Shown here: positions 670 to 33,980 of the stretch, one piece after another
Layout of the letters: the number at the start of each line of letters is the position of its first letter
Position numbering within the stretch: the first letter of the stretch is position 1
Translations under genes and position numbers: made by a program
The notes under the pieces: generated by a model
Databases searched by the model: none
What the model was told of the DNA's origin: nothing
Seen by the model: only the letters and a program-made list of their open reading frames with translations
From: Pseudomonadota bacterium
GTDB taxonomy: Bacteria > Pseudomonadota > Gammaproteobacteria > Steroidobacterales > Steroidobacteraceae
Length of the DNA stretch: 34,821 nucleotides
Reading direction: 5' to 3'
Assembly: GCA_021809525.1 (NCBI GenBank)
Contig: JAKAYU010000011.1
Coordinates: 1 to 34,821, forward strand

Positions 670-1358
670 GCGACCGCCTGCTCGCTCTCGACCAGCGTGC
701 CCTTGTCGAGGTGCAGGATCCGGCCGGCGTGCTCGGCGGCCTTCGGATCGTGGGTGACCATGACGATGGTCTTGCCGTGCGCGCGATTGAGCTGCTGCAG
801 CAGCGAGAGCACCTCCTCGGCCGACTGGCGGTCGAGGTCGCCGGTCGGCTCATCGCACACCAGCAACGTCGGATCGGACACGATCGCCCGCGCGATCGCC
901 ACGCGCTGCTGCTGGCCTCCGGAGAGCTCGCCGGGCTTGTGTGCGGAGCGGTCGGCGAGCCCGACCAGCTGCAGCGCGACGCTCGCGTTGCGGCGGCGCT
1001 CGCGGCCCTTGAGCTTAGTCAGCAGCAGCGGGAGCTCCACGTTGCGCTGCGCCGAGAGCATCGGCAGCAGGTTGTAGAACTGGAAGACGAACCCGACGTG
1101 CGCGGCACGCCAGCGCGCGAGCGCCCCCTGCCCGAGCTGATCGATGCGCTCGCCGGCGACCGAGAGAGTGCCCTCGGTGGGCGTGTCGAGTCCCCCGATG
1201 AGGTTCAGCAGCGTCGTCTTGCCCGAGCCCGAGGGGCCCATCAGCGCCACGAACTCCCCCGGCGCGACATCGAGGTTGATGTGATGCAGCACTTCGATGC
1301 GCTGGCGGCCGCGCTGATACACCTTGCTCAGGGAGCGGATCTCGACCAATGCGCTCAT
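666..1358 (-). CDS. ABC transporter ATP-binding protein, MacB/LolD type
   Basis: 230-residue nucleotide-binding subunit starting MSALVEIRSLSKVYQRGRQR. Walker A is GPSGSGKTT (about residue 42), the signature is LSGGQQQR, Walker B is LLVCDEPTGDLD and the H-loop is in MVTHD. The DEPTGDLD form is typical of the MacB/LolD/FtsE exporter class. The ATG at 1356-1358 is chosen because homology begins there, a GGAGTG lies just upstream, and it follows the adaptor stop by five bases. An in-frame extension to 1574 overlaps the adaptor gene and has no family-like sequence. The protein powers the permease encoded next; the substrate is not inferable. Confidence 0.93.
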   Translation of the reverse strand: MSALVEIRSLSKVYQRGRQRIEVLHHINLDVAPGEFVALMGPSGSGKTTLLNLIGGLDTPTEGTLSVAGERIDQLGQGALARWRAAHVGFVFQFYNLLPMLSAQRNVELPLLLTKLKGRERRRNASVALQLVGLADRSAHKPGELSGGQQQRVAIARAIVSDPTLLVCDEPTGDLDRQSAEEVLSLLQQLNRAHGKTIVMVTHDPKAAEHAGRILHLDKGTLVESEQAVA

Positions 1359-1363
1359 ACGCC

Positions 1364-2611
1364 TCACTCCTTCCTGATGCTCACGCGCTCGCCGTCGGCG
1401 AGATCCGCCGGCGGCGCACGCACAACGGCGCTGCCGGCGGCGATTCCGCCCACGGCCCGCAGATCCGAGCGCAGCGGACCTAAGGTCACGGTCCGCGCCT
1501 CGGCCCGTCCGCGCTTGACCGCGAACACCACGGCGTGGCCGGCGCGATGCACCACGCTCGAGGCCGGCACCCACACCATGCCCGCCGGCACGATCGAGCG
1601 CGCCGGCGCACCGGCGCGCGTGCGCTGCAGGAACGATACGCGCACTCCCATCTGCGGCAGGATGCGCGGGTCCTTGCTCTGTAGCGCCACGCGCACCCGC
1701 ACCGTCGCCTTGCTCTTGTCGGCCGTCGGCACGATGGCAATGACGTGCGCCGGTATGCGCCAGTTCGGATACGCATCCAGCACCGCCACTGCCGGCTGGC
1801 CCGCGTGCACGCGATCGATGTACGCCTCGTTGACGTCCACATCGACCTCGAGGGAATTCATGTCGACGATGGTCGCGATGCCGGTCTGCGTGAAGCCTCC
1901 GCCGCCGAAGAACGGCGAGATCATCTCGCCCATCTGCGCAGCCTTGTCGACGACCACACCGCTGAAGGGCGCCCGCACCACCGTATAGTCCTCCTGCACC
2001 GCGGCGGCCTGCACCGCCGCGCGCGCCACCGCGACCTGGCGGCGCTGGGAGAGCACCTGCGCGCCGAGCGATGCGGCCTGCGTCTGTGCCTGCTGCAGCG
2101 CCTGCACGGACACCAGGTGTTGGCCGATGAGCGCCTCATCACGCGCCAGGTCGCGCCGCGCCTCGGCCCACTGCACCCGGTACTGCTGCAGCAGCGCCTG
2201 AGCAGCCTGCTGCTGCGCCTGCGCCTGATGCAGGGAGGCCAGAGTGGCGCTGTCGTCCAGGCGCGCCAGTATCTGCCCCCGGTGCACATACTCGCCTTCC
2301 TGGAAGTACACGTGGGTCAGCATGCCGGCGATCTGCGCGGACACCGTGGCCTCGCGCTCGGCCGTGACGTAGCCGCTCGCCTGCAGCACCGCCTCAGGCG
2401 CCGACAGGGCGGATGGGGCAATAGCGGTCGCGGTCTTGACGGTGATCACCCGGTCCCGCGCCAACAAGAAATACGCTCCCGCCGCCAGCGCCGCGAGCAC
2501 CACCAGGACCGATGCCACGATCCACGCCGTACTCGGCGCGTGCACCGCCTCGCGCTGCCCGCGATCGATCTTCAGCTGGGCCAGCAGTTCGTTGTTATTG
2601 TGCGAGTCCAC
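1364..2611 (-). CDS. HlyD/MacA-family periplasmic adaptor (membrane fusion protein)
   Basis: About 415 residues. An N-terminal membrane anchor (STAWIVASVLVVLAALAAGA) is followed by a lipoyl-like half motif around SGYVTAEREATVSAQIAGML, an alanine/glutamine-rich alpha-hairpin with coiled-coil character, the second lipoyl half (VRAPFSGVVVDKAAQMGEMI) and beta-barrel domains. This is the membrane-fusion-protein order, linking an inner-membrane transporter to an outer-membrane channel. It is first in a three-gene operon (adaptor, ATPase, permease). The start is uncertain: the GTG at 2609-2611 fits the anchor position; GTGs at 2639-2641 and 2672-2674 are alternatives, and none has a clear ribosome site. 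No outer-membrane factor gene is in the window. Confidence 0.87.
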   Translation of the reverse strand: MDSHNNNELLAQLKIDRGQREAVHAPSTAWIVASVLVVLAALAAGAYFLLARDRVITVKTATAIAPSALSAPEAVLQASGYVTAEREATVSAQIAGMLTHVYFQEGEYVHRGQILARLDDSATLASLHQAQAQQQAAQALLQQYRVQWAEARRDLARDEALIGQHLVSVQALQQAQTQAASLGAQVLSQRRQVAVARAAVQAAAVQEDYTVVRAPFSGVVVDKAAQMGEMISPFFGGGGFTQTGIATIVDMNSLEVDVDVNEAYIDRVHAGQPAVAVLDAYPNWRIPAHVIAIVPTADKSKATVRVRVALQSKDPRILPQMGVRVSFLQRTRAGAPARSIVPAGMVWVPASSVVHRAGHAVVFAVKRGRAEARTVTLGPLRSDLRAVGGIAAGSAVVRAPPADLADGERVSIRKE

Positions 2612-2645
2612 GCTGACCGGCCACACCCACTGTAGTTTCACTCCC

Positions 2646-2657
2646 CCGACCGGTCGG
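2646..2657. promoter_or_regulatory. Perfect 12-bp palindrome upstream of the exporter operon
   Basis: CCGACCGGTCGG reads identically on both strands and lies about 35 bp before the chosen adaptor start. CCGACCGGTCGG-like cores are common in TetR-family operators, which often sit in front of efflux operons. That it is an operator here is inference; no TetR gene is in the window. Confidence 0.4.
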
Positions 2658-2702
2658 AACCCAACGCGCAGCACAACGGCAAGGGCGTTCTACGACAGCG
2701 TC

Positions 2703-2734
2703 CGGTCCGGGTAAATTCGGCCCTCGCCGGACCG
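2703..2734. repeat. Inverted repeat CGGTCCGG/CCGGACCG
   Basis: Eight-base arms at 2703-2710 and 2727-2734 are separated by 16 bases in the gap between nagZ and the exporter operon. It could be a hairpin or part of a regulatory region. There is no T-run, so it does not look like an intrinsic terminator. Confidence 0.35.
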
Positions 2735-2816
2735 CGCCCGCTGCGGCGGAGCCCGTGGGCCGGACGCATCATCGGTTCGGCCGTTGCGATCGCCCAGTGC
2801 AATGCGTCACCGGCCC

Positions 2817-2836
2817 CGGGTGACACTTGTCACCCG
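2817..2836. promoter_or_regulatory. 20-bp dyad (9-bp arms, 2-bp centre) between nagZ and the exporter operon
   Basis: CGGGTGACA and TGTCACCCG flank a CT centre, giving perfect 9-bp arms. It lies 31-50 bp beyond the nagZ stop and about 206 bp before the adaptor start. A TGACA-N2-TGTCA core is the shape of a dimeric-repressor site. No U-tract follows on either strand, so a terminator is less likely. Confidence 0.4.
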
Positions 2837-2866
2837 CAGTCCTCGGCGCACGAGGCCGTCCGCAAA

Positions 2867-3916
2867 CTAGTCGTTGCCGGCGTCGAGATCGAGCCTGGGC
2901 ACTGCCGCGCACTGCGCCAGCAGCGCCTGCGCATCGCGCCAGCGCGCCGAGGCGCGCAGCGCCTGCGGCCCCTGCCGCTGCCGCCCGTGCAGCCGCGCCA
3001 GGCGCACTCCCGAGGCCGGCGCCGGCGTGACTTTCAGGTGATCGAGCAACGCTTCCACCGCAGCACGGTCGTTGCACACCGGCAGCATGTCGCAGCCGGC
3101 CGCGAGCGCCCGCTCGGCGCGGGTGACGATCTCGCCGTACGCCGCCGCACCGCCCATCGACAGGTCATCGGCGAACACCGCGCCCGGAAAGCCGAGCTCC
3201 CCGCGCAGCACCTGTCCGATCCAACGGTGGGAAAAGCTCGCCGGCGCCGCATCGACCGCGGGAAACAGCAGGTGACCGACCATCACCGCCGGCAGCCCGT
3301 TGGCGATCAGCCGCCGGTACGGCATCAGATCGGCCTCGAGGTCGGCGAACTCACGCCGGTCGACGGGCAGCGCCGCGTGCGAGTCGGCCGTCACCGCGCC
3401 GTGTCCGGGAAAGTGCTTGGCGGTGGCGGCCATGCCCGCCTCGCGCATGCCCTGCGCGTAGGCCGCGGCGAGCTGGCTGACCGCCTGCGGGCGGCTGTGA
3501 AACGCCCGATCGGTGATGAAGCTGACACCGTAATCGATGTCGACGCAGGGCGCGAACGACAGATCCACCCCGCAGGCGAGCAGCTCCGCGGCCATCAGCC
3601 AGCCCATCTCGCGCGCGAGCGCAAGCCCGCGCCGCGCCTCAAGATCGAACTGCCGGCCGAGGCTGCGCGCCGCGGGCAGCGCGGAGAAGCCCTCCCGGAA
3701 GCGCTGCACGCGCCCGCCCTCGTGATCGACCGCGACCAGCAGCGGCGGGCTGCGCGCCGCGTGGATGGCCGCGCTGAGCGCGGCGAGCTGCGCCGGCTCG
3801 GCATAGTTGCGGGAGAAGAGAATCACCCCACCCACCAGCGGATGGACGAGCAGCGCGCGCTCCTCGCCCGTGAGCGCCGTGCCCGTCAGGTCGATCATCA
3901 GCGGACCGAGCGTCAT
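2867..3916 (-). CDS. nagZ: Beta-N-acetylhexosaminidase NagZ (peptidoglycan recycling)
   Basis: 349-residue glycoside hydrolase family 3 enzyme that removes GlcNAc from GlcNAc-anhydroMurNAc-peptides in the cytosol during wall recycling. The family marks are present: the KHFPGHG motif (about residue 168), the TADSHAALP loop carrying the Asp-His pair, and the nucleophile region VFADDLSMGGA. The ATG at 3914-3916 gives MTLGPLMIDLTGTALTGEER, matching the usual NagZ N-terminus. Upstream in-frame codons lie inside rlmD and are discarded. It follows rlmD by 13 bases and ends the housekeeping run. Length is close to the Escherichia coli protein (341), with a slightly long arginine/alanine-rich C-terminal tail. 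Confidence 0.95.
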   Translation of the reverse strand: MTLGPLMIDLTGTALTGEERALLVHPLVGGVILFSRNYAEPAQLAALSAAIHAARSPPLLVAVDHEGGRVQRFREGFSALPAARSLGRQFDLEARRGLALAREMGWLMAAELLACGVDLSFAPCVDIDYGVSFITDRAFHSRPQAVSQLAAAYAQGMREAGMAATAKHFPGHGAVTADSHAALPVDRREFADLEADLMPYRRLIANGLPAVMVGHLLFPAVDAAPASFSHRWIGQVLRGELGFPGAVFADDLSMGGAAAYGEIVTRAERALAAGCDMLPVCNDRAAVEALLDHLKVTPAPASGVRLARLHGRQRQGPQALRASARWRDAQALLAQCAAVPRLDLDAGND

Positions 3917-3929
3917 GCGCGTGTGTGCC

Positions 3930-5267
3930 TCAGCGCCCGGTGAGCAACGCCATCGACTCGACGTGCCCGGTGTGCGGGAACATGTCGATGACTCCCGCGG
4001 CCTCGAGCGTGAAGCCATGCTCGTGCACCAGCACGCCGAGGTCGCGCGCGAGACTGCCTGGATGGCATGAGATGTACAGCACACGGCGCGGGCGCAGAGC
4101 GGCGATGGTGGCGAGCATCTCGCGCGCGCCGACCCGCGGCGGATCGAGCAGCACGTGGCTGAAGGGGCCGCGCAGCCAGGGCGTGCGCGCGTCCGGCGGC
4201 CGCGACAGGTCCGCGACGTGGAACTCGACGTTCGCGATGCCGTTGCGCGCGGCGTTGCCCCGCGCGCGCTCGATCAGCTGCGACTCGCCCTCAACTCCGA
4301 CGACTCGCGCGCCCGAGCGCGCGAGCGGCAGCGTGAAGTTGCCAAGACCGCAGTACAGATCGAGCACCGCATCGCCCGGCCCCGGCGCGAACAGCTGCAC
4401 CGCTCGGCGGACCAGCTCGCGGTTCACCACGCCGTTGATCTGCACAAAATCGCTCGGCCGAAATTCGAGTTTCAGCTCGAAGTCCGCGAGCGTGTAGTAG
4501 AGCGGCTCGAGCGCTTCGCCCGGCTCGAGCGGCTCGATGCTCTCCAGGCCGCCCGGCTGCAGATACAGGCGCGCCCCGTAACGGGTCGCAAACGCGCGCA
4601 GCCGCTGCCGGTCGGCCGCCGACGGCGCCGCCAGCACCCGCAGCACCAGCGCGGTGGCGTTGTCCGCCACGGCCACCTCGATCTGCGGCAGCCGCGCGCG
4701 GATCTCGAGCGAGCCGATGAGCTCCCCGAGCGGCGCGATCCACTCGCCGACCGGCGGACTCAACACATCGCAGTGCTGCAGGTCGGCGACATACGGCGCG
4801 TTGCGCTCGCGAAACCCGACCACCACCTTGCCCTTCTTGGCCACGTATTTCGCGCCGAGCCGCGCGCGGCGCCGATACCCCCACGCCGGACCGGCAAGGG
4901 GCTCAAGCCAGTGAGGACACGCCACGCGCGCCAGACGCTCGAGGTTGTCGGCGAGCTCGGTCTGCTTCAGCGCGAGCTGCGCCTCGCTCGAGAGGTGCTG
5001 CAGCGCGCACCCGCCGCATACTCCGAAATGCGCACAGCGCGGCGTCACGCGCGCGGCGGCCGGCGCGAGGATCTCGAGCAGCCGGCCTTCATCGTGCTGG
5101 CGGTGCCGGCGGGTGCGCACGAAGCGCACGGTCTCCCCGGGCAGCGCGCCCGGGATGAACACCGTCTTGCCCCCGCGCACGATGCCCTCGCCCTCGTGCG
5201 TCAGGCCCGCGACGCGGGCGCACTCCTCGAGCGCGGTCTGCGCCCGCAGCGCGGCCGGTCTGCTCAT
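3930..5267 (-). CDS. rlmD: 23S rRNA (uracil-1939-C5)-methyltransferase RlmD
   Basis: 445 residues. An N-terminal TRAM-like domain is followed by a four-cysteine iron-sulfur site (CAHFGVCGGC, later DLQHC), the SAM-binding motif DLYCGLGNFTLPLA, LDPPR, and the catalytic cysteine in YISCHPGSLARDL. This set defines the RumA/RlmD family, which methylates U1939 of 23S rRNA. The related TrmA lacks the cluster, and RlmC is shorter. The ATG at 5265-5267 overlaps the exonuclease stop as ATGA, so it is preferred over the in-frame codon 15 bases upstream. Confidence 0.94.
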   Translation of the reverse strand: MSRPAALRAQTALEECARVAGLTHEGEGIVRGGKTVFIPGALPGETVRFVRTRRHRQHDEGRLLEILAPAAARVTPRCAHFGVCGGCALQHLSSEAQLALKQTELADNLERLARVACPHWLEPLAGPAWGYRRRARLGAKYVAKKGKVVVGFRERNAPYVADLQHCDVLSPPVGEWIAPLGELIGSLEIRARLPQIEVAVADNATALVLRVLAAPSAADRQRLRAFATRYGARLYLQPGGLESIEPLEPGEALEPLYYTLADFELKLEFRPSDFVQINGVVNRELVRRAVQLFAPGPGDAVLDLYCGLGNFTLPLARSGARVVGVEGESQLIERARGNAARNGIANVEFHVADLSRPPDARTPWLRGPFSHVLLDPPRVGAREMLATIAALRPRRVLYISCHPGSLARDLGVLVHEHGFTLEAAGVIDMFPHTGHVESMALLTGR

Positions 5268-6040
5268 CGGGCCCCTTCCCACGCCTGCAGAAACTGCGCG
5301 AAGTGCGGCTCCTCGCCCGCGCGCAGCAGCGCGCGCACCCGCTCGAGCTCGCTCTCGTGCGCGGCGCGGGTCAGCCGCCCGCGCAGCAGCTCAAAGCGCA
5401 GATACACCAGATAGGTGTTGAGCACGTCGGTCTCGCAGTAGCGGCGGATGCCGGTGATGTTGCCGGCCTGATAGGCGTCCCAGACCTGCGCGCCGGAGAA
5501 GCCGAGCTTGCCCGGAAAGCCGAGCAGCTGCGCGATGTTCTCGAGCGAGACCCGTCCGCGCCCCTGAAAACCCGACAGCACGTCCATCAGGTCCAGATGC
5601 CGCCAGTGGAAGCGGCTGAGGTAGTTGTTGTAGCGGAACGCCGGATCGGACTCCCCGGTCTCCCAGTAGCGGCCCGCCTGCACCCCGGCGGCGAGCGCCC
5701 GATAGGTGAGCACCGGCAGGTCGAACCCCGAGCCGTTCCACGACACCAGCTCCGGGGAGAACCGCTCGATGCCGTCGAAGAAGCGCTCGATGAGCTCGTG
5801 CTCGGGAGCCTGCTCATCCCCGAGGCTCCACACCTTGAGCGTATCGGCGCGGCGCAGCACGCAGGAGATCGCCACCACCCGGTGCTGCTCGTGGGAGAGA
5901 AACTCCCCGCCGGAGTCCTGGCGGCGCAGCGCGAACATGGCTTTGGCGACCGCCTCATCGCTGAGGCCCTCGAGGCCGTAGAGCCGCCGTCCGAGCGCCA
6001 CGTCCGGGACGGTTTCGATGTCAAACACCAGACAGTTCAT
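5264..6040 (-). CDS. DEDD-family 3'-5' exonuclease (PolB-exo2 type)
   Basis: 258 residues beginning MNCLVFDIETVPD, where the Asp and Glu of exonuclease motif I are visible. Motif II is in SWNGSGFDLPVL and the last acidic motif is RYCETDVLNTYLVYL. The layout matches the stand-alone family related to the proofreading domain of family-B polymerases (Pfam DNA_pol_B_exo2). It should trim 3' ends of DNA or RNA; the physiological substrate is not known to me. It lies between acpS (34-bp gap) and rlmD (ATGA overlap) in the same transcription unit. Confidence 0.85.
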   Translation of the reverse strand: MNCLVFDIETVPDVALGRRLYGLEGLSDEAVAKAMFALRRQDSGGEFLSHEQHRVVAISCVLRRADTLKVWSLGDEQAPEHELIERFFDGIERFSPELVSWNGSGFDLPVLTYRALAAGVQAGRYWETGESDPAFRYNNYLSRFHWRHLDLMDVLSGFQGRGRVSLENIAQLLGFPGKLGFSGAQVWDAYQAGNITGIRRYCETDVLNTYLVYLRFELLRGRLTRAAHESELERVRALLRAGEEPHFAQFLQAWEGAR

Positions 6041-27205: not shown

Positions 27206-28224
27206 GCCAGCGCCTCCAGCCCCGCGCGGCCGCGCCGCCAGCGCCGCCAGCGATCGCGCGGCCGAAGGCGCCACGCCCGGTCGTTGGCGAGCAGCCAGAG
27301 CTGATCGAGGCGCCCCGCGCCGAGGGCGGCCACGGCCGGCGCAATCCAGCGCCGGTCGAGGTCCGCCACCGCCGCGAGCAGATCGAAGCGGGGCTCGCGC
27401 CGCAGCGCCTCGCTCACTTCGAGCACCTGCAGCGCGCGCCCGATCGGCGCGCCGGGCGCGTACGGCCACTCCGGCGGCGCCTCCCGGCACTCGCTCCCCG
27501 CCAGCCGCGCCAGGCCCGTCAGATACCCCTCCGCACCGTGGATGGCGCCGCGCGCCGCAGCGCGGGGCAGGGGCGTGGCCGGTGGTGCCCCGCCGCCCCA
27601 GATCCACAGCGTCGAGACCGGCGGCTCGCCGCGGACAGCCCGTTCGGCATTGAGCGGGTGATCGTGCAGCCACATTTCGAGCTCCGCGCCGAGGCGCCGC
27701 AGGGCGGGGGCGCCGGGGCCGCTCGGCAGGCACTGTGCGAGCGTGCGCGCCGGCAGACGCGCCGGCTCGCAGGTGTCGACCCGCTCCGCCCCGGGTGCCC
27801 CGAGCACGAACCCGCCGCACTGAAGCGCCGCGAGGCTCCATCCGGAGCCGGCGTAGAGCGCATTGAACTGCTCGGCGAGGCGCTCGCGCTCGGCCCGAGC
27901 GAGGCGCAGCCGCCCGCGCCGCTCCAGGTGCACCCGCCCGACCCCCTCGGTCAGGTGCAGCGGCTCGGCGAGCCACACACTCTGCGCGGCGGGCGGGGCG
28001 GGCAGCGCGGCGGCCGCCACGCTCGCCGGCGGCACGGCGGCATAACGCTCGAGCCCGAGCCAGCGCGCCGCCCATTCGCGCCAGGAGCGCTCGAGCGGCT
28101 CGCGGCGCGCAAAGCGCGTCAGCGGCCCGATGCCCTCGAGCGCGAGGTCGCCCGGCAACGGCGCCGCCGCGTCCGCTTCGGGGTCCAGATACAGATCCGC
28201 AATGACGATGACGAGTTCGCTCAC
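27202..28224 (-). CDS. RpfE-like / phosphoglycerate-mutase-related conserved protein
   Basis: 340 residues starting at GTG: (M)SELVIVIADLYLDPEADAAA. It contains LHDHPLNAERAVRGEPPVST, LWIWGGGAPP and a C-terminal LDQLWLLANDRAWRLRPRDR. It resembles the COG4255 family annotated as RpfE-type regulatory protein or independent-phosphoglycerate-mutase-like protein, which sits next to recJ in Xanthomonas. The family is recalled from memory, not searched, and its biochemical function is not established to my knowledge. It is translationally coupled to recJ. Its start is only 18 bp from the divergent Mth938-domain gene. Confidence 0.6.
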   Translation of the reverse strand: MSELVIVIADLYLDPEADAAAPLPGDLALEGIGPLTRFARREPLERSWREWAARWLGLERYAAVPPASVAAAALPAPPAAQSVWLAEPLHLTEGVGRVHLERRGRLRLARAERERLAEQFNALYAGSGWSLAALQCGGFVLGAPGAERVDTCEPARLPARTLAQCLPSGPGAPALRRLGAELEMWLHDHPLNAERAVRGEPPVSTLWIWGGGAPPATPLPRAAARGAIHGAEGYLTGLARLAGSECREAPPEWPYAPGAPIGRALQVLEVSEALRREPRFDLLAAVADLDRRWIAPAVAALGAGRLDQLWLLANDRAWRLRPRDRWRRWRRGRAGLEALA

Positions 28225-28242
28225 GGGCGCTATCGTACCGTC

Positions 28243-28614
28243 ATGCGATTCACCTTAGAGAGCACAACGCAGGTCAATACGGTCCGGGCCTACTCGCCGC
28301 AGGAGCTGCGCATCGGGCAGACGGTGGTGCGCGCAAGCTGCATCGTCACCGCCGAGCGGCTGATCACCGAGTGGACGCCGGTGTGCTTCGAGGCGCTCGA
28401 GGAGGCGCATCTGGAGGATATTTTCGCGCTCGAGCCGCAGATCGTGCTGCTCGGCACCGGCGCGCGCCAGCGCTTTGCGCCCGCGCCGATCCGCGCCGCC
28501 TTCAGCGCGCGCGCCATCGGACTGGAAATGATGGATCTCGGGGCCGCCTGCCGCACCTTCAACATCCTGGTGCACGAGGACCGGCGAGTCGCCGCGGCGT
28601 TGTTCTTCGCTTAA
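28243..28614 (+). CDS. Mth938-domain protein (DUF498)
   Basis: 123 residues. The segments VNTVRAYSPQELRIGQTVVR, LEPQIVLLGTGARQRFAP and the C-terminal MMDLGAACRTFNILVHEDRR are typical of the Mth938-like family, whose human member NDUFAF3 is a complex I assembly factor. The bacterial role is unclear. It is divergent from the RpfE-like gene. Its 3' side borders the degraded insertion sequence. Confidence 0.85.
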   Translation: MRFTLESTTQVNTVRAYSPQELRIGQTVVRASCIVTAERLITEWTPVCFEALEEAHLEDIFALEPQIVLLGTGARQRFAPAPIRAAFSARAIGLEMMDLGAACRTFNILVHEDRRVAAALFFA

Positions 28615-28657
28615 GCCCGGGCGCTGCGGGTCGCTCGGGGTTGAGCTCCTCTGCGGC

Positions 28658-28891
28658 CTAAAGAGCGCAGATTCCTGCGGCGCGACGGCGAGGCCCCGCC
28701 GCGCCGATGAGCTGGGCGCAGTTCACGTCGCGCTCATCGACCGCAGCGCACCGCGGACAGACCCATTCTCCTTAATTCCGGGACCCGCGATACCTTGCGG
28801 GCCGCAGCGTGCGCTGCACGCTGGACAGGTCTGGGTGGTTCGAGCTGCATCGATCTGCAGAAACACCGCGCTTGGCAGCTGGCACTTCTCG
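28658..28891 (-). pseudogene. tnpB pseudogene, C-terminal fragment (IS200/IS605 type)
   Basis: On the minus strand the fragment reads EKCQLPSAVFLQIDAARTTQ, then TCPACSARCGPQGIAGPGIK, followed by a two-base insertion (28766-28767) and then WVCPRCAAVDERDVNCAQLI ending AAGICAL-stop at 28658. This is the TnpB zinc ribbon (CxxC...CxxC) and the last RuvC motif (DRDVN in intact proteins, DERDVN here). The frameshift and the split from its N-terminal half at 30886 make it non-functional. It lies directly after the Mth938-domain gene. Confidence 0.75.
28887..28891. repeat. Target-site duplication, left copy (TCTCG)
   Basis: Five bases next to the TGT end of the inserted element match GCTCG at 30886-30890 in four of five positions. 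Joining the flanks with one copy restores the tnpB reading frame (L-R-E-K-C). Confidence 0.6.
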
Positions 28892-28939
28892 TGTTGGCGG
28901 GGACCCGGAACCGCGTGATTTTGGGGGCGAGATGCGGAA
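28892..28939 (+). repeat. Terminal inverted repeat, left end
   Basis: It begins TGTTGGCGGGGA and contains TGATTTTGGGGGCGAGA followed by GCGGAA. Ungapped comparison with the right end matches 35 of 48 positions, and 22 of the inner 24. A further GGTGCGGAAT near 28985 echoes the GATGCGGAAT of the repeat. Confidence 0.75.
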
Positions 28940-29426
28940 TTGGCACAAGAGTTCGGGTCGTAGGCAGCACGAGCGGGGTATCGAGGTGCGGAATACACTA
29001 GATTCGGGAGCACTGTGGTGTTCTCTCGATCGATCTCCACCGCAGTTCGTCAGGAAGTTCAGCCCCGATGCGTCACCTCGGGAACGCGGCACCCGTCACC
29101 CGGACAGCGGTGCACATCGGGCGCACCAAGAAGCCCAAGAACGCAGCTATCCACAAAGGTCAACAGCGTCTCGCCACCGCGCTGTGTACAACGCTTGACC
29201 ATCGTCTCAGGATGGCGCATCCAATGGCGCTCCAGGACGCGGCTGCGGGCTATCGGATGTGCGCTCACATAGGCTCGAGCGCAGCTACTCACGCCTCACA
29301 TGCCACTCGGCTGGGGCAGCCGGCAACTCCCGACCCGACGCGTTCGGCAGAACGGCCGCAATGCGGTGGGCGTGATGTCGTCGCAAGCCGTCTGCGGAGT
29401 GGAAAGTGCGCCCGCGACACCGCCCA
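28940..29426. other. Gene-free part of the inserted element, downstream of the passenger gene
   Basis: About 490 bp between the left repeat and the passenger gene's stop. Several short frames exist on both strands, but none has a family-like sequence or a good ribosome site. It holds a hairpin (GGTCAA at 29158-29163 with TTGACC at 29195-29200, extended by GCG/CGC past a two-base bulge). I see no transposase remnant. Confidence 0.5.
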
Positions 29427-30593
29427 TCATTGCGCGTAGCCATCACCCGCTTCAATCGACTTGATACCGCTCGTTCGCGAATGCATGGATAATACAGCCA
29501 GCGGAACCAACCGGCGGCTGCGGGCGCGCGGGGCTCGATACACGACCAGCAGCGAGCCGTCATTACGGTTGCGCCCGACTTTAACGAAATAGTCCTGCGC
29601 GGCCGGCACAATCCAGCGTAATAGACTCTGACTGGAGATGATCGAGGTGGCAGAGGCAACATACAATTTGCCGTCAAGATGCAACGGAAAGAACGCCACG
29701 TCTGCGGAAAACACATCAGGAGACAAGTGAGTGTCACCTCTGCGCTCAGCTGCGGTCACCCTGGACATCCCGATGTGGCGCGCACGCGCTACGAGCGCAC
29801 GGCCCCGTGCGGTCGGCGTGTTCTGGAATCGAAACCCTCGCATCGAGAATCTTCCGATTTCGTTAAAATATACAGTCTGTTCCGTTGAATATCTTCGGTA
29901 GCGACGTTCAACGGCAGGTGCAACCTTACGCGCCGCGGCGCAGACCGCGCGATCGGGGCCGCAGTACTGCTGTCTCACGGGGTACCTGTGCAGCCACTGA
30001 ATTGACACATGACACGCCTGTCCCCAGTACGTAGCCTTCCAGGGAATGATGTTTAAACGCGTGCCGATAGTGTCGGGATTGTCCGATCCGGACACGATGA
30101 ACGCGGGATTCCCCATTACGGTCGCAAGACTGCCCGACGTCCCCGCGAGACTGCACAGATCGGACTCGACTGGCGGAGAGCCGAGTAAGCGCACCGCACC
30201 TCCCCGCTTCCGTTCAAAGAATTGATATTGCAGGCAGTCTCCAGACCCAGCATACGCGCTGATCATCGCAAGCGCAGTCCCAGGCAGGGATTCGATGGTC
30301 GGAAACGAGGCCCCTCGGCCTCCCATCATGCGCCAGATTGGCGGAAGGTGGCGGTACGCCGGGTCCCCTTGCGCGGGCTGGGACGCCGCGTTGACGATCC
30401 ATGGCGGTAGCATCGTATGCTTTACGAACAGATCGTGAAGCACTGTTGCACGGGAAGCACGCAGCTGCGCGACCAACCGTGAACATAAGGAGGCAGTGGC
30501 GGGAGACTTTGCTTGGGCGCTGGGCGCGCCTATGCCGATTCCGGCAAGACCGTACAGGCTTAAGATGATGGCAAACCGTTTCTTTCGGTTCAT
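29427..30593 (-). CDS. Secreted protein of unknown family, passenger of the inserted element
   Basis: 388 residues starting MNRKKRFAIILSLYGLAGIG, a clear Sec signal peptide with likely cleavage after SAQA (about residue 28). The mature part has paired cysteines (SLCSRL, GDCLQYQ, DLCSLAG, GQACHVS, QYCGPDRAVCAAA), consistent with disulfides in the periplasm or outside. The C-terminal third is arginine-rich. I recognise no catalytic motif or domain. The unbroken length, signal peptide and cysteine pattern argue that it is a real, maintained gene. It is the only intact gene between the element's repeats and is less GC-rich than its neighbours. Confidence 0.75.
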   Translation of the reverse strand: MNRKKRFAIILSLYGLAGIGIGAPSAQAKSPATASLCSRLVAQLRASRATVLHDLFVKHTMLPPWIVNAASQPAQGDPAYRHLPPIWRMMGGRGASFPTIESLPGTALAMISAYAGSGDCLQYQFFERKRGGAVRLLGSPPVESDLCSLAGTSGSLATVMGNPAFIVSGSDNPDTIGTRLNIIPWKATYWGQACHVSIQWLHRYPVRQQYCGPDRAVCAAARKVAPAVERRYRRYSTEQTVYFNEIGRFSMRGFRFQNTPTARGRALVARARHIGMSRVTAAERRGDTHLSPDVFSADVAFFPLHLDGKLYVASATSIISSQSLLRWIVPAAQDYFVKVGRNRNDGSLLVVYRAPRARSRRLVPLAVLSMHSRTSGIKSIEAGDGYAQ

Positions 30594-30837
30594 GAGTGTT
30601 CGCCCTACGCTGCAAGATTTACCCAGAGTAGTCGGCGGATTTGCACCATTTGCCAGACGTCCGCTCCGGAAATTCTATCCCACTGCTCCACAGACCGTTG
30701 GGTCGAGGCATGTCCCCCACGGCCAGGAGTGGGTTCTGGGTCGGCTGGAATCATCTGAGGACCTGCGACGCAGATGTGAGCTGAGTACCATGTAACTCCG
30801 TCGACAAGTGCACTTGAGCGTGTGGACCGATCCAGAT
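30594..30837. other. Leader region of the passenger gene
   Basis: 244 bp between the right repeat and the passenger gene start. A short minus-strand frame that begins in the repeat crosses it but looks accidental. TAGAAT (minus strand, about 75 bp before the start) is a possible -10 with no convincing -35. Confidence 0.4.
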
Positions 30838-30885
30838 TTCCGCGTCTCGCCCTCAAAATCAGGCGCCTTTCAATCCCCATCTACA
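30838..30885 (-). repeat. Terminal inverted repeat, right end
   Basis: Read on the minus strand from 30885 it begins TGTAGATGGGGA and contains TGATTTTGAGGGCGAGA followed by GCGGAA. It is the partner of the left repeat in inverse orientation, of equal length with no gaps needed. Confidence 0.75.
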
Positions 30886-30890
30886 GCTCG
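30886..30890. repeat. Target-site duplication, right copy (GCTCG)
   Basis: Partner of TCTCG at 28887-28891, with one mismatch. The tnpB reading frame breaks exactly here. Confidence 0.6.
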
Positions 30891-31440
30891 CGCAGCGGTG
30901 CTCTGAATGCGCTCCAGCCAGCTTCAGGAACCGCCTTCGCGGGCGGGGTCTGCGCGACAGCGGAAGCATTCACGTTGCCGATGAAGATTGCGCCGTAGCG
31001 TTGCACCAGGAGGCCGTCCGATGTCGCAAGGAGGTCCCTCAGGCCGACGCGAAGGTATGGCCCACGAATCGCACGACGCCACGAGATCTGCACTGGATCG
31101 CGACTGCCTTCAATGGGATCTACCCGAGGCGGTGGCGCGCGTGGCGCCGGTCGGACACGTGCCAGCGCAGCTTGCGCTGCTTGAACGGGATGCGCCCCTT
31201 GCGGTACTCCGCATTCACCGGCTGGACGGGCTTGGGCGTGCAGCGCCAGAGCGGCCTTCATGGCACCGGAGGTGAATATGTGCAGATCCGCAGACGAGAG
31301 AAACCGCCCCTGCCGATCGAGAACCTTGCGGCAGCTCTCCCGGTCGTAGTTTCAGAGGACGTTCACAGCGGGCGCCCGAGCTCGCAACCATGGGACGTGT
31401 TTATCCTGCACCCGCAAGGTGCGCTCGCACTCGTCCTCTG
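30886..31440 (-). pseudogene. tnpB pseudogene, N-terminal and middle fragment (IS200/IS605 type)
   Basis: Minus-strand pieces in different frames follow the TnpB order: TLRVQDKHVPWLRARAPAVN, a TGA in place of Trp (31352-31354), NYDRESCRKVLDRQGRFLSS, a frameshift near 31220, EYRKGRIPFKQRKLRWHVSD, a TAG in place of Trp (31120-31122), and IPLKAVAIQC through VRFVGHTFA. A deletion around 31035-31060 removes the first RuvC region. Then comes YGAIFIGNVNASAVAQT and AKAVPEAGWSAFRAPLRE, where the second element interrupts it. It cannot make an active nuclease. Confidence 0.75.
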
Positions 31441-31955
31441 GACATGAATTGCGTTGCTTGCGCGCCGTGGTGTTGGTCTACCGGCACTGCAACGCGCGTT
31501 CAGAAGAAAACTCCGACGGAGCCTCGGAAATGCGCACGCCTTATACCTGCGGCCTGAACATTGGCGTGTTACGGCGTGTGGGGATAAAGAAGGCACAGAG
31601 GGAGAGGCACTCAACCCGCCGACCCGGCGCGCCGAACGCTGCTGTGGCGCGCTGGCGTATTATTGCTTTTGAGGGTCGCGATCGATTTGTTGCTTTTGTG
31701 CCAGCTCCCCTCCTCCCTGTGCCCTCTCCTTCCGCCTCTGCGCCAACTCGCGTGTCGCCGTGCAGAGACGGGCGTATGTTAACCACGCGCGTTTTGCCCT
31801 GGCAAGCGTTTTCCGCGCGCGACGAGGCCGGCTCACCGCTGCGCGAGGGCGCTCGGCCCCTTGCGCTGTCCCCGATCGAATAGATTCCTGATTTCAATCA
31901 GTTATCTCGATGAGCTCACGCCAAGCGGCACGTGGGAGTTCGCCGCCGCGCGCGC
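31441..31955. other. 515-bp region without a supported gene, upstream of the tnpB remnant
   Basis: Frames on both strands here have no family-like sequence. It should contain the missing outer end of the tnpB element. Small structures are CTCCGACGGAG (31511-31521), which on the minus strand is followed by TTTTCTT; two copies of TTGCTTTTG near 31665 and 31694; and the palindrome CTGATTTCAATCAG (31888-31901) just beyond the pcm stop. No tRNA or origin is visible. Confidence 0.5.
31888..31901. repeat. 14-bp palindrome beyond pcm
   Basis: CTGATT and AATCAG arms with a TC centre, about 55 bp downstream of the pcm stop. It could be a short hairpin ending the surE-pcm transcript, but no T-run follows on the minus strand. 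Confidence 0.3.
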
Positions 31956-32618
31956 TCAGCCTTTGCCGCCAAGCAGTGGCACGAACGCCACACGGCCGAG
32001 CGGCTCGCGGGTCACGCCCTGCTCGCGGCGCGTGAAGCGCATCAGCTCCTGCTTGCCGTCCTCGCCCACCGGCACGATGAGGCGCCCGCCCGGGGCGAGC
32101 TGGCGCAACAGCGCCTGCGGCACCACGAGCGGCGCGGCCGCCACCAGGATGCCCTCGAACGGCGCCTGGGACTTCCAGCCCTGCGTGCCGTCGCCGTGGT
32201 GGAATTTGACGTTGCGGATGTCGAGCTCTTTGAGGCGCTCCTTGGCGCGATCGAGCAGGCCGGCGATGCGCTCGATGGTGAACAGCCGCTCCACGAGCGG
32301 CGCCAGGACAGCGGTCTGGTAGCCGCAGCCGGTGCCCACTTCGAGCACATTGCCGAGCGGACCGCCCTCGAGCAGCGCCTCGCTCATGCGCGCCACGATG
32401 TAGGGCTGGGAGATGGTCTGGCCGAAGCCGATCGGCAGCGCGGTGTCCTCGTAGGCGCGGCTGCCGAGGGCCTCATCGACGAAGATGTGCCGCGGCACGT
32501 TGCGGATCCGATCGAGCACGGCGAGGTTGCTGATGCCCTGCTCGCGCAGGCGCTGCACCAACCGGTCGCGCGTGCGCAGGGAGGTCATCCCGATGCCCGC
32601 GAAGCGCAGGTCAGCCAT
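31956..32618 (-). CDS. pcm: Protein-L-isoaspartate O-methyltransferase
   Basis: 220 residues. The SAM-binding motif is [20 protein letters not shown], with the PCMT-specific [20 protein letters not shown] ahead of it. It methylates isoaspartyl residues to start repair of aged proteins. The ATG at 32616-32618 overlaps the surE stop by eight bases, the standard surE-pcm order. The nlpD-rpoS genes that often follow pcm are not here; the accessory region begins instead. Confidence 0.95.
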
Positions 32619-33369
32619 CGATCCTCTCCAGCCAGCCCTGCAGGGACGGGAGCGCCGCGTGGCGGGTCAGATCGATCTGCAGCGGTGTCACCGAGACGTA
32701 GCCCGCGTCGATGGCGTGAAAGTCGGTGCCGGGGCCGGCGTCCTGCTGCGCACCGGCCGGCCCGACCCAGTACACCGGACGGCCGCGCGGGTCGCGCGCC
32801 GGGATGATCGGCTCAGAGCGGTGCCGGTAGCCGAGGCGGGTGCCGCGGAAACCGCGCAGGGCCTCGAGCGGCACGTCCGGCACGTTCACGTTGAGAATGA
32901 GCGAGGCATCGAGCGGCCGAGCGAGCATCTCGGCGATGAGCCGGTGCGCCACCGCGGCGCCGGTCTCGAAGTGCCCGCCGCTGCCCGGGCGGGTGCACAG
33001 TGAGACCGCCAGCGTCGGCAGGCCGAGGAAGCGCCCTTCGATCGCCGCAGCAACGGTGCCCGAATAAAGCACATCGTCGCCGAGGTTGGCTCCGTCGTTG
33101 ACGCCCGAGACCACCATGTCGTGCTCGAAATCAAAGAATCCGGTGATCGCCAGGTGCACGCAGTCGGTCGGCGTACCCTGCACGCAGTAAAGCCCCGGCT
33201 CGATCTCGAGCACCCGCAGCGGCACATCGAGCGTGAGCGAATTGCTCGCGCCGCTGCGGTTGCGGTCGGGGGCGACGACGGTGACCTCGGCCAGATCGCT
33301 GAGCCTGCGGCGCAGGACGCGGATGCCCTGGGCCATGTAGCCGTCGTCGTTGCTGAGCAGTATTTTCAC
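32611..33369 (-). CDS. surE: 5'/3'-nucleotidase SurE
   Basis: 252 residues. It starts at GTG with [16 protein letters not shown], where NDDG is the metal-binding signature; [15 protein letters not shown] and [20 protein letters not shown] follow as in all SurE proteins. It removes phosphate from nucleoside monophosphates and exopolyphosphate in stationary-phase survival. No Shine-Dalgarno is obvious. It is divergent from the Smr gene across 77 bp. Confidence 0.96.
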
Positions 33370-33416
33370 GTGCGGAACAAAGTCTCGGCGAGGACGCTCC
33401 CCGGGAAGGCCGCGAC

Positions 33417-33422
33417 TATACT
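33417..33422 (+). promoter_or_regulatory. Candidate -10 box for the Smr gene
   Basis: TATACT lies 25 bp ahead of the Smr start in the 77-bp divergent gap. No good -35 is seen at normal spacing, so support is modest. Confidence 0.35.
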
Positions 33423-33446
33423 GGAAGCAAAATCCGCGGAGGTAGC

Positions 33447-33980
33447 GTGTGCGCTTCGGACCCCGAAGATGAGCGACGGCTCTTCCGGCAAGCCGTGCGC
33501 GACGTCAAGCCGCTCGAGCGCCCCGCCGCGCCGAGCGAGCGGCCCAAGCCGGCGCCGGCGGCGCGCTTCACGCGGGCCGACCGGCTGGCCGTGCTCGCCG
33601 AGAGCCTCAGCGAGGACCCGCTCGATCCGGCGCTCGCCGCCGGGGACGAGCTCGTCTTCCGGCGCGAGGGGGTGCAGCTTGGGGTGCTGCGGCGGCTGCG
33701 CCGCGGGGAATACCGTGTGCAGGCCGAGCTCGACCTGCACGGCCTGACCGTGCCGCAGGCCAAGCAGGCCCTGCGCGAGTTCATGGCCGAGGCGCTGCGA
33801 CGGCGCTGGCGCTGCGTGCGGGTGATCCACGGCAAGGGGCTGCGCTCCGGTCACCGCGGGCCGGTCCTCAAGGGCATGGTCGCCTCGGCGCTGCGCCGGT
33901 TCGCACCGGTGCTCGCCTTCGTCTCGGCGCGGGCAGTCGATGGCGGTACGGGAGCCATCTACGTGCTGCTCTCCTCGTAG
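33447..33980 (+). CDS. Smr-domain protein (SmrA-like putative nuclease)
   Basis: 177 residues. An N-terminal basic/proline-rich region is followed by a C-terminal Smr domain with the conserved [31 protein letters not shown] and [16 protein letters not shown] segments. Smr domains are found in MutS2 and in small stand-alone proteins with nicking or RNA-cleaving activity; the role of this one is not defined. The GTG start at 33447-33449 is fixed by GGAGG five bases upstream. Its 3' end overlaps the convergent truD end by 22 bases. Confidence 0.87.

Follow-up and report, generated by a model that had tools for sequence, protein, structure and literature searches.

The segment at positions 28892–30885 of the window (the whole 34,821-nucleotide stretch analysed here) interrupts a decayed tnpB gene, and raises the question of what kind of element it is and what could have moved it. 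The sequence-only reading had described a mobile insertion cassette (MIC), that is, cargo mobilised in trans by a related autonomous element. This structure is supported by related copies with varied cargo, by IS21-type relatives, by an intact tnpB in a sister genome and by an empty chromosomal site in relatives. The segment is probably an MIC whose ~50-bp ends would be recognised in trans by IstA (with IstB) of an IS21-family element of the same genus.

The extent first read for the element holds with exact coordinates, as do its inverted ends. Over 48 ungapped inverted positions, 35 are identical, and the best 24-bp block matches at 22/24; neither value was reached when the two 400-bp end regions were resampled 300 times under a first-order Markov model, the maxima being 30/48 and 19/24. 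The match of 35/48 alone would be weak, because unrelated 48-mers reach 33–34 over the whole 10-kb GC-rich stretch; the ends are counted as real because of where they lie, because of the 22/24 block and because further copies exist, as described below. The ends are ~50 bp long, start with TGT and are related to an IS21 end. Coordinates of the cassette, its target and its relatives are collected in Table 1.

Table 1. Features of the cassette, its insertion site and related elements; positions lacking a locus prefix are those of the window.
Feature	Location	Strand	Length	Description and evidence
Mobile insertion cassette, whole	28892..30885	.	1,994 bp	Inverted ends, tnpB junction, copies elsewhere
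Left (L) end module	28892..29083	+	~192 bp	First ~52 bp resemble IS21-element end; profile HMM E 3.9e-56 (built from 6 sequences, this cassette among them)
Right (R) end module	30702..30885	-	~184 bp	Profile HMM E 3.2e-49 (built from 11 sequences, this cassette among them)
Passenger gene	29427..30593	-	388 aa	Probably secreted; intact ORF, no Pfam/NCBIfam match
Segment homologous to other genomes	29332..30697	.		G029: element positions 441-1792, 81%; G026: 459-1806, 76%
Target-site copy TCTCG	28887..28891	.	5 bp	4/5 match to other copy; agrees with L204 at differing base
Target-site copy GCTCG	30886..30890	.	5 bp	First base apparently mutated
Decayed tnpB target, 3' part (IS200/IS605-type)	28641..28891	-		Alignment to L204; weak PF07282 match below its cut-off
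Decayed tnpB target, 5' part	30886..31580	-		Alignment to L204
Cassette, G055 C198	L023:3245-5280		2,036 bp	Cargo 399-aa homologue, 32% over 242 aa to 388-aa protein
Cassette, G020 C366	L025:125-1543		1,419 bp	Cargo GrpB (E 4e-48); no exact duplication
Cassette, G042 C64	L028		~1.77 kb	Cut at contig start; cargo Lcl_C/PEP-CTERM protein
IS21-family element, G014 C2	L088:2405-5952		3,548 bp	IstA + IstB between related ends; duplication CGCCT
IS21-family element, G007 C125	L098:23-3565		3,543 bp	IstA + IstB between related ends; no duplication

The target gene fixes the same junction. An uninterrupted tnpB, a 414-aa open frame, is present in a sister genome (L204, G014 C70), the only one of 30 fetched PF07282 loci to span the junction. 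When the cassette and one 5-bp copy are removed, the host tnpB aligns to L204 with no gap at the junction (joined positions 21–357 against L204 1456–1790, 73%), and a continuous translation through the rejoined halves reads LRE-KCQ in a single frame, in agreement with the sequence-only reading. The flanking pentamers are likewise as first read; at the one base that distinguishes them L204 has T, suggesting a mutation in the right copy. The host tnpB is itself a relic: compared with L204, it lacks ~300 bp in its middle part and has further indels.

The site without the insert was found in relatives. Judged by the neighbouring PCMT protein, the nearest relative is G041 (98% identical); there, positions 27526–28640 are joined directly to 31580–33500, so that the tnpB relic and the cassette are both absent. 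Among the loci of 29 relatives that were compared, the insert is missing in all 14 that retain both flanks; in the remaining 15, one flank has no match. The spacing between the flanks in the 14 is 3 to 201 bp, and at most 25 bp in seven (L155–L160 and L171). The IS200/IS605-type element is likely to have inserted first, followed by the cassette into that element.

Within the cassette, no transposase is recognisable: none of the seven internal ORFs of at least 80 aa matches Pfam at E 0.1, and the three scanned against NCBIfam have no match, in keeping with the original description of a single intact gene and no transposase. As IstA and IstB are absent from 28892–30885, the cassette is not itself an IS21 insertion sequence. 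It combines several features of an MIC: inverted repeats, no transposase, an unrelated passenger gene and ends akin to those of an autonomous IS. A reading of the end modules as structured RNA finds no support, since the net covariation term is unfavourable for both (+1.07 and +1.17) and Rfam has no match anywhere in 28000–32000; at least one two-sided change is present in 4/27 and 7/48 of the predicted base pairs, respectively. Where the R module ends on its inner side (alignment A2, columns 172–195), a short hairpin is predicted that shows a few two-sided changes; it could be terminator-like or a binding-site palindrome.

The cassette belongs to a family with a common architecture, in which an L module and an R module enclose exchangeable cargo. 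Complete or near-complete cassettes are found in the window and in three other genomes (Table 1), and the cargo runs from R to L in two of the four and from L to R in the other two. The G055 cassette sits between two parts of an IS1595/ISXO2-type transposase gene, flanked by an exact 6-bp duplication, CAATGG. Homologues of the L module are found at L023, L025, L028, L030 and L032, and in part at L127; homologues of the R module are found at L023, L025, L028, L029, L031, L033, L034, L036, L041 and L042. Seven R modules (L029, L031, L033, L034, L036, L041 and L042) and two L modules (L030 and L032) are solo, with no partner within the stretch read. The genes adjoining four of the solo R modules encode GFA, PIN, PemK/MazF-like and PIN proteins; their status as cargo is only inferred, because the partner end was not found. 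The partial L module at L127 lies beside a different IS21 element; it was read as disrupted by another IS and was not counted.

The family is restricted in its distribution. In the search of 196 genomes, matches to the element at E 0.001 were found in 22, and matches to its end regions in 18, the host genome and 17 others, all of the same genus; an order-wide search of 296 genomes confined the R module to that genus (copy numbers here are lower bounds and absences limited, because two candidates were scored in most genomes of both searches). Four matches outside the genus fall in the middle of the element and were not counted as ends, and short R-module matches (25–28 bp) in G284, G053 and G230 were attributed to chance. 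An 88-bp query of the IS-type end matched 13 of the 58 genomes of the genus. In a contig collection, a degenerate R-end pattern matched six loci in five MAGs, five of them already in the family set (G055, G042, G020, G014 and G029). The sixth locus, L148, adds an R end that lies at the edge of a contig. Plasmid records contained no match to the cassette, and viral contigs contained none to the R-end pattern. The host genome itself, a 3.57-Mb MAG that is 94% complete, contains neither a second copy of the element nor its inner end block at up to three mismatches.

Copies with no cargo are also present. Three kinds of element, namely the cassettes, miniature elements (MITEs) and IS21-family elements, have the first ~50 bp in common. 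The MITEs are ~245 bp long with related ends, and nine were found, in G003, G011, G012, G026, G035 and G048. Exact duplications of 5–7 bp flank 9 of the 15 elements tested and are absent from six. By kind, they flank 7/9 MITEs, 1/2 IS elements and 1/4 of the others, among which only the G055 cassette has one; the cassette of the window, the G020 cassette and the L024 element do not.

Two arrangements of the miniatures are unusual. The 314-bp L024 element (L024:2849-3162, G048 C43) resembles a ~245-bp MITE to which a second, IS-type end has been added; it has three end matches and no target duplication. On L094 (G011 C75), three MITE copies lie within 5.6 kb (29–274, 3796–4041 and 5360–5604), a clustering that suggests local bursts.

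An autonomous element with related ends, as the trans-mobilisation proposal calls for, was found in two sister genomes. The IS21-family elements of G014 and G007 encode IstA of 527–529 aa and IstB of 280–291 aa, and partial IS21 copies with related ends are present in G026 and G035. The G007 proteins have Pfam matches to IstB_IS21 (E 4e-56) and to Mu-transpos_C_2 (E 1e-25); a match to rve falls below its cut-off. At 3.5 kb, the elements at L088 and L098 exceed the 2.0–2.6 kb given in the accessible portion of the published IS21 entries. Both also hold an extra ORF for a 180-aa Cys-rich protein, which in L098 has no Pfam family.

The link between these elements and the cassettes lies in the ends, which were compared, without gaps, across their outermost 48 bp. 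Against the istB-side IS21 end, the L ends of the cassettes score a mean of 36.2/48 (maximum 41; 5 × 4 comparisons); they match type 1 MITE ends at 35.9/48 and one another at 34.5/48. The R ends match one another at a mean of 34.3/48, the L ends at 27.1/48 and the two IS21 ends at 28.8 and 26.0 of 48. The resemblance to IS21-type elements, already noted in the sequence-only reading, holds at the left end and is less pronounced at the right. Past ~54 bp, the modules have little in common with the IS21 element. Internal direct repeats of the kind reported in IS21 ends are not significant in any of the seven ends analysed, 80 to 438 of 500 shuffles reaching the observed value. In the available part of one study, IS5376 of the IS21 family is reported to have been assayed with ends of 55 bp that comprise two repeats, to have terminal CA, 5-bp direct repeats and no clear target specificity, and to be able to use two like ends (PMC10122671). 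The end sizes and duplications described here fit these data, as far as that part of the study reports them.

The strongest competing explanation is that an unseen transposase, from another or more distant IS21 lineage or from another family, moved the cassettes, the G007/G014 element being only a cousin. This is unlikely. The R end bears a modest likeness to known IS21 ends, leaving room for an undetected, closer autonomous parent, and the four MAGs with cassettes yielded no helper; against this, the L end matches the G007/G014 element as well as the L ends of the cassettes match each other. Furthermore, among 46 loci with IstB-similar proteins, such ends lie within 280 bp of istB in four, which are exactly the subgroup of at least 90% identity (the end profile was iterated over loci that included these four IS ends, which were first seen next to IstB by BLAST). 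The other 42 loci have no such end beside istB, and other IS21 lineages were rejected as the mover. In 34 of these loci both sides extend beyond 600 bp, and in the other 12 one side is 600 bp or shorter; the loci L026 and L135 overlap. One IstB locus, L087, has only a MITE, 3.4 kb away.

The helper itself is sparsely distributed. Among the 58 genomes of the genus, near-identical IstA was found at E 1e-40 only in G007, G014 and G012 (residues 1–267), with weaker relatives in G023 (a 77% fragment) and G028 (60%). At the same threshold, the cognate IstA was not found in G000 (the host genome), G055, G020 or G042, the best match in the host being 32% identical. All four genomes are draft MAGs, a type of assembly that often loses repeats; either the helper was lost from the draft assemblies or the cassettes are stranded. 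The G007 element also matches 41 plasmid records at 60–80% identity; in the 15 listed, the match is confined to the istA–istB stretch and excludes the ends.

A second alternative is that the segment is an internally deleted IS21 or a composite relic, now immobile, and its gene an incidental neighbour. The decayed tnpB target, the imperfect duplication and the helper missing from the genome would all suit such a relic. It is nevertheless very improbable, since the four elements with both end modules hold different genes in both orientations, and since the passenger gene is intact, with dN/dS of 0.40 and 0.34 against its intact homologues in G029 and G026 (75% and 71% identical at the protein level), values which indicate that it has been kept as a protein. 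The 388-aa product is probably secreted, judging from its N-terminus as read by eye; an AlphaFold model of it was unusable (mean pLDDT 36.9).

The G029 and G026 homologues have no cassette end in the stretches read around them. The G029 locus (L026, C54) contains three direct copies of a 211-nt sequence (662–872, 1854–2064 and 4888–5098; 65% and 79% relative to the reference copy), spaced along a stretch that includes the cargo homologue as well as a PIN gene and one of winged-helix/nucleotidyltransferase-like type; a possible explanation is an array of integrated units. At L027, the cargo homologue is flanked by a PIN gene and tRNA-Gly.

Tn3-family transposons are known for 5-bp duplications, long inverted repeats and toxin–antitoxin passengers. 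The idea that the modules are Tn3-family ends and the cassettes Tn3-derived MICs is the least probable of all: Tn3-type TnpA sequence (PF01526, E 4e-100) does lie next to modules of both types, an R module at L041 (G018) and an L module at L030 (G003), and PIN and PemK are among the genes beside solo R modules, but the L041 unit, delimited at 1158–4374 by comparison with L251 and L243, has its own 39-bp inverted repeat and leaves the R module (884–1067) outside, 11 of 13 TnpA loci (several of them fragments at contig ends) carry no module or end of either type at E 0.5, and IS21 elements have related ends around istA/istB. Tn3 transposase was accordingly rejected as the mover at L041, which together with L145, a longer stretch of L030, accounts for all module-carrying TnpA loci among the 13.

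Two TnpA loci deserve separate mention. At L145:15362-16773 (G003 C27, the same place as L030), a decayed Tn3 TnpA fragment abuts the inner edge of the L module. The host genome has a Tn3-family TnpA of its own (L251, G000:C79:15618-17813), which is 96% identical to that of G018, contains one in-frame stop and adjoins an unrelated IS21 istB; L243 is a comparison copy from G012.

In the preferred reading, of an MIC moved by an IS21-family element, the pathway would run as follows. IstA would bring the L and R ends into synapsis and cut at the terminal TGT...ACA. Strand transfer assisted by IstB, an AAA+ helper, would then place the cassette in a loosely chosen target, in this case a tnpB relic, and duplicate 5 bp of it. 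Between the ends would lie exchangeable cargo, here a single gene under purifying selection for what is probably a secreted protein. Mobilisation in trans by IstA and IstB of a G007/G014-type element is the best supported of the presumed steps, and the acquisition of cargo between the ends is inferred as well. Recent structural studies have addressed both end recognition and AAA+ control in the IstA/IstB system (PMC10122671, PMC11208146).

It is conceivable, and offered tentatively, that the cassettes form part of a genus-wide gene-shuttling system driven by IS21, in which the ~190-bp modules provide a portable frame for swapped, unrelated single genes. The cargo of such a system would comprise secreted proteins, GrpB and probably PIN/PemK toxin-family and GFA proteins, and would be moved by a two-component, AAA+-regulated transposase. 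The coexistence of an autonomous IS, miniatures and cassettes with end variants makes the tolerance of IS21 end divergence directly testable, and the same natural set makes the entry of cargo between ends testable. Through such cassettes, accessory genes may spread among uncultured bacteria in a way that escapes gene-based annotation.

Relative to the IS21 family, the cassette has a terminal TGT...ACA, ~50-bp ends of related sequence and, in the wider family, 5-bp duplications, whereas it lacks istA/istB, carries cargo and has a diverged right end. In literature on IS21 together with cassettes or non-autonomous elements, no IS21-driven cassette was recognised, within a body of papers from which most subscription journals are absent. 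Tn3-type MICs exist in Xanthomonas, and MIC231/IS231 cassettes of Bacillus cereus were reportedly described by Chen in 1999 and De Palmenaer in 2004; IS231 is an IS4-family element. In IS231 MICs, according to the available part of PMC3913671, a passenger gene replaces the transposase, and mobilisation in trans depends on the IS transposase. The likeness, to the extent covered there, lies in a passenger gene between IS ends and in variable cargo; here, in contrast, the ends are of IS21 type, the likely helper is the two-protein IstA/IstB and the ~190-bp end modules are conserved. Tn3-derived MICs and TIMEs, as presented in the accessible section of PMC4133298, are similarly non-autonomous, cargo-bearing or miniature transposon derivatives, whereas in the present case the Tn3 unit is bounded by repeats of its own, with the module lying outside it. 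The qnrS2/qnrD mic elements resemble the cassette in having a single gene, imperfect inverted repeats and no transposase, and for the qnrD mic the portions available describe 24-bp repeats and no mobilisation gene found (PMC3913671, PMC4444841); here, unlike there, an IS with related ends is present in sister genomes. The gene-shuttling system, if real, would be a transposon-based counterpart of the integron cassette, and the cargo orientations in both directions and the target duplications speak against membership of the integron gene cassette class. As an MIC, the cassette is characterised by IS21-type ends, conserved end modules and, across the family, varied cargo.
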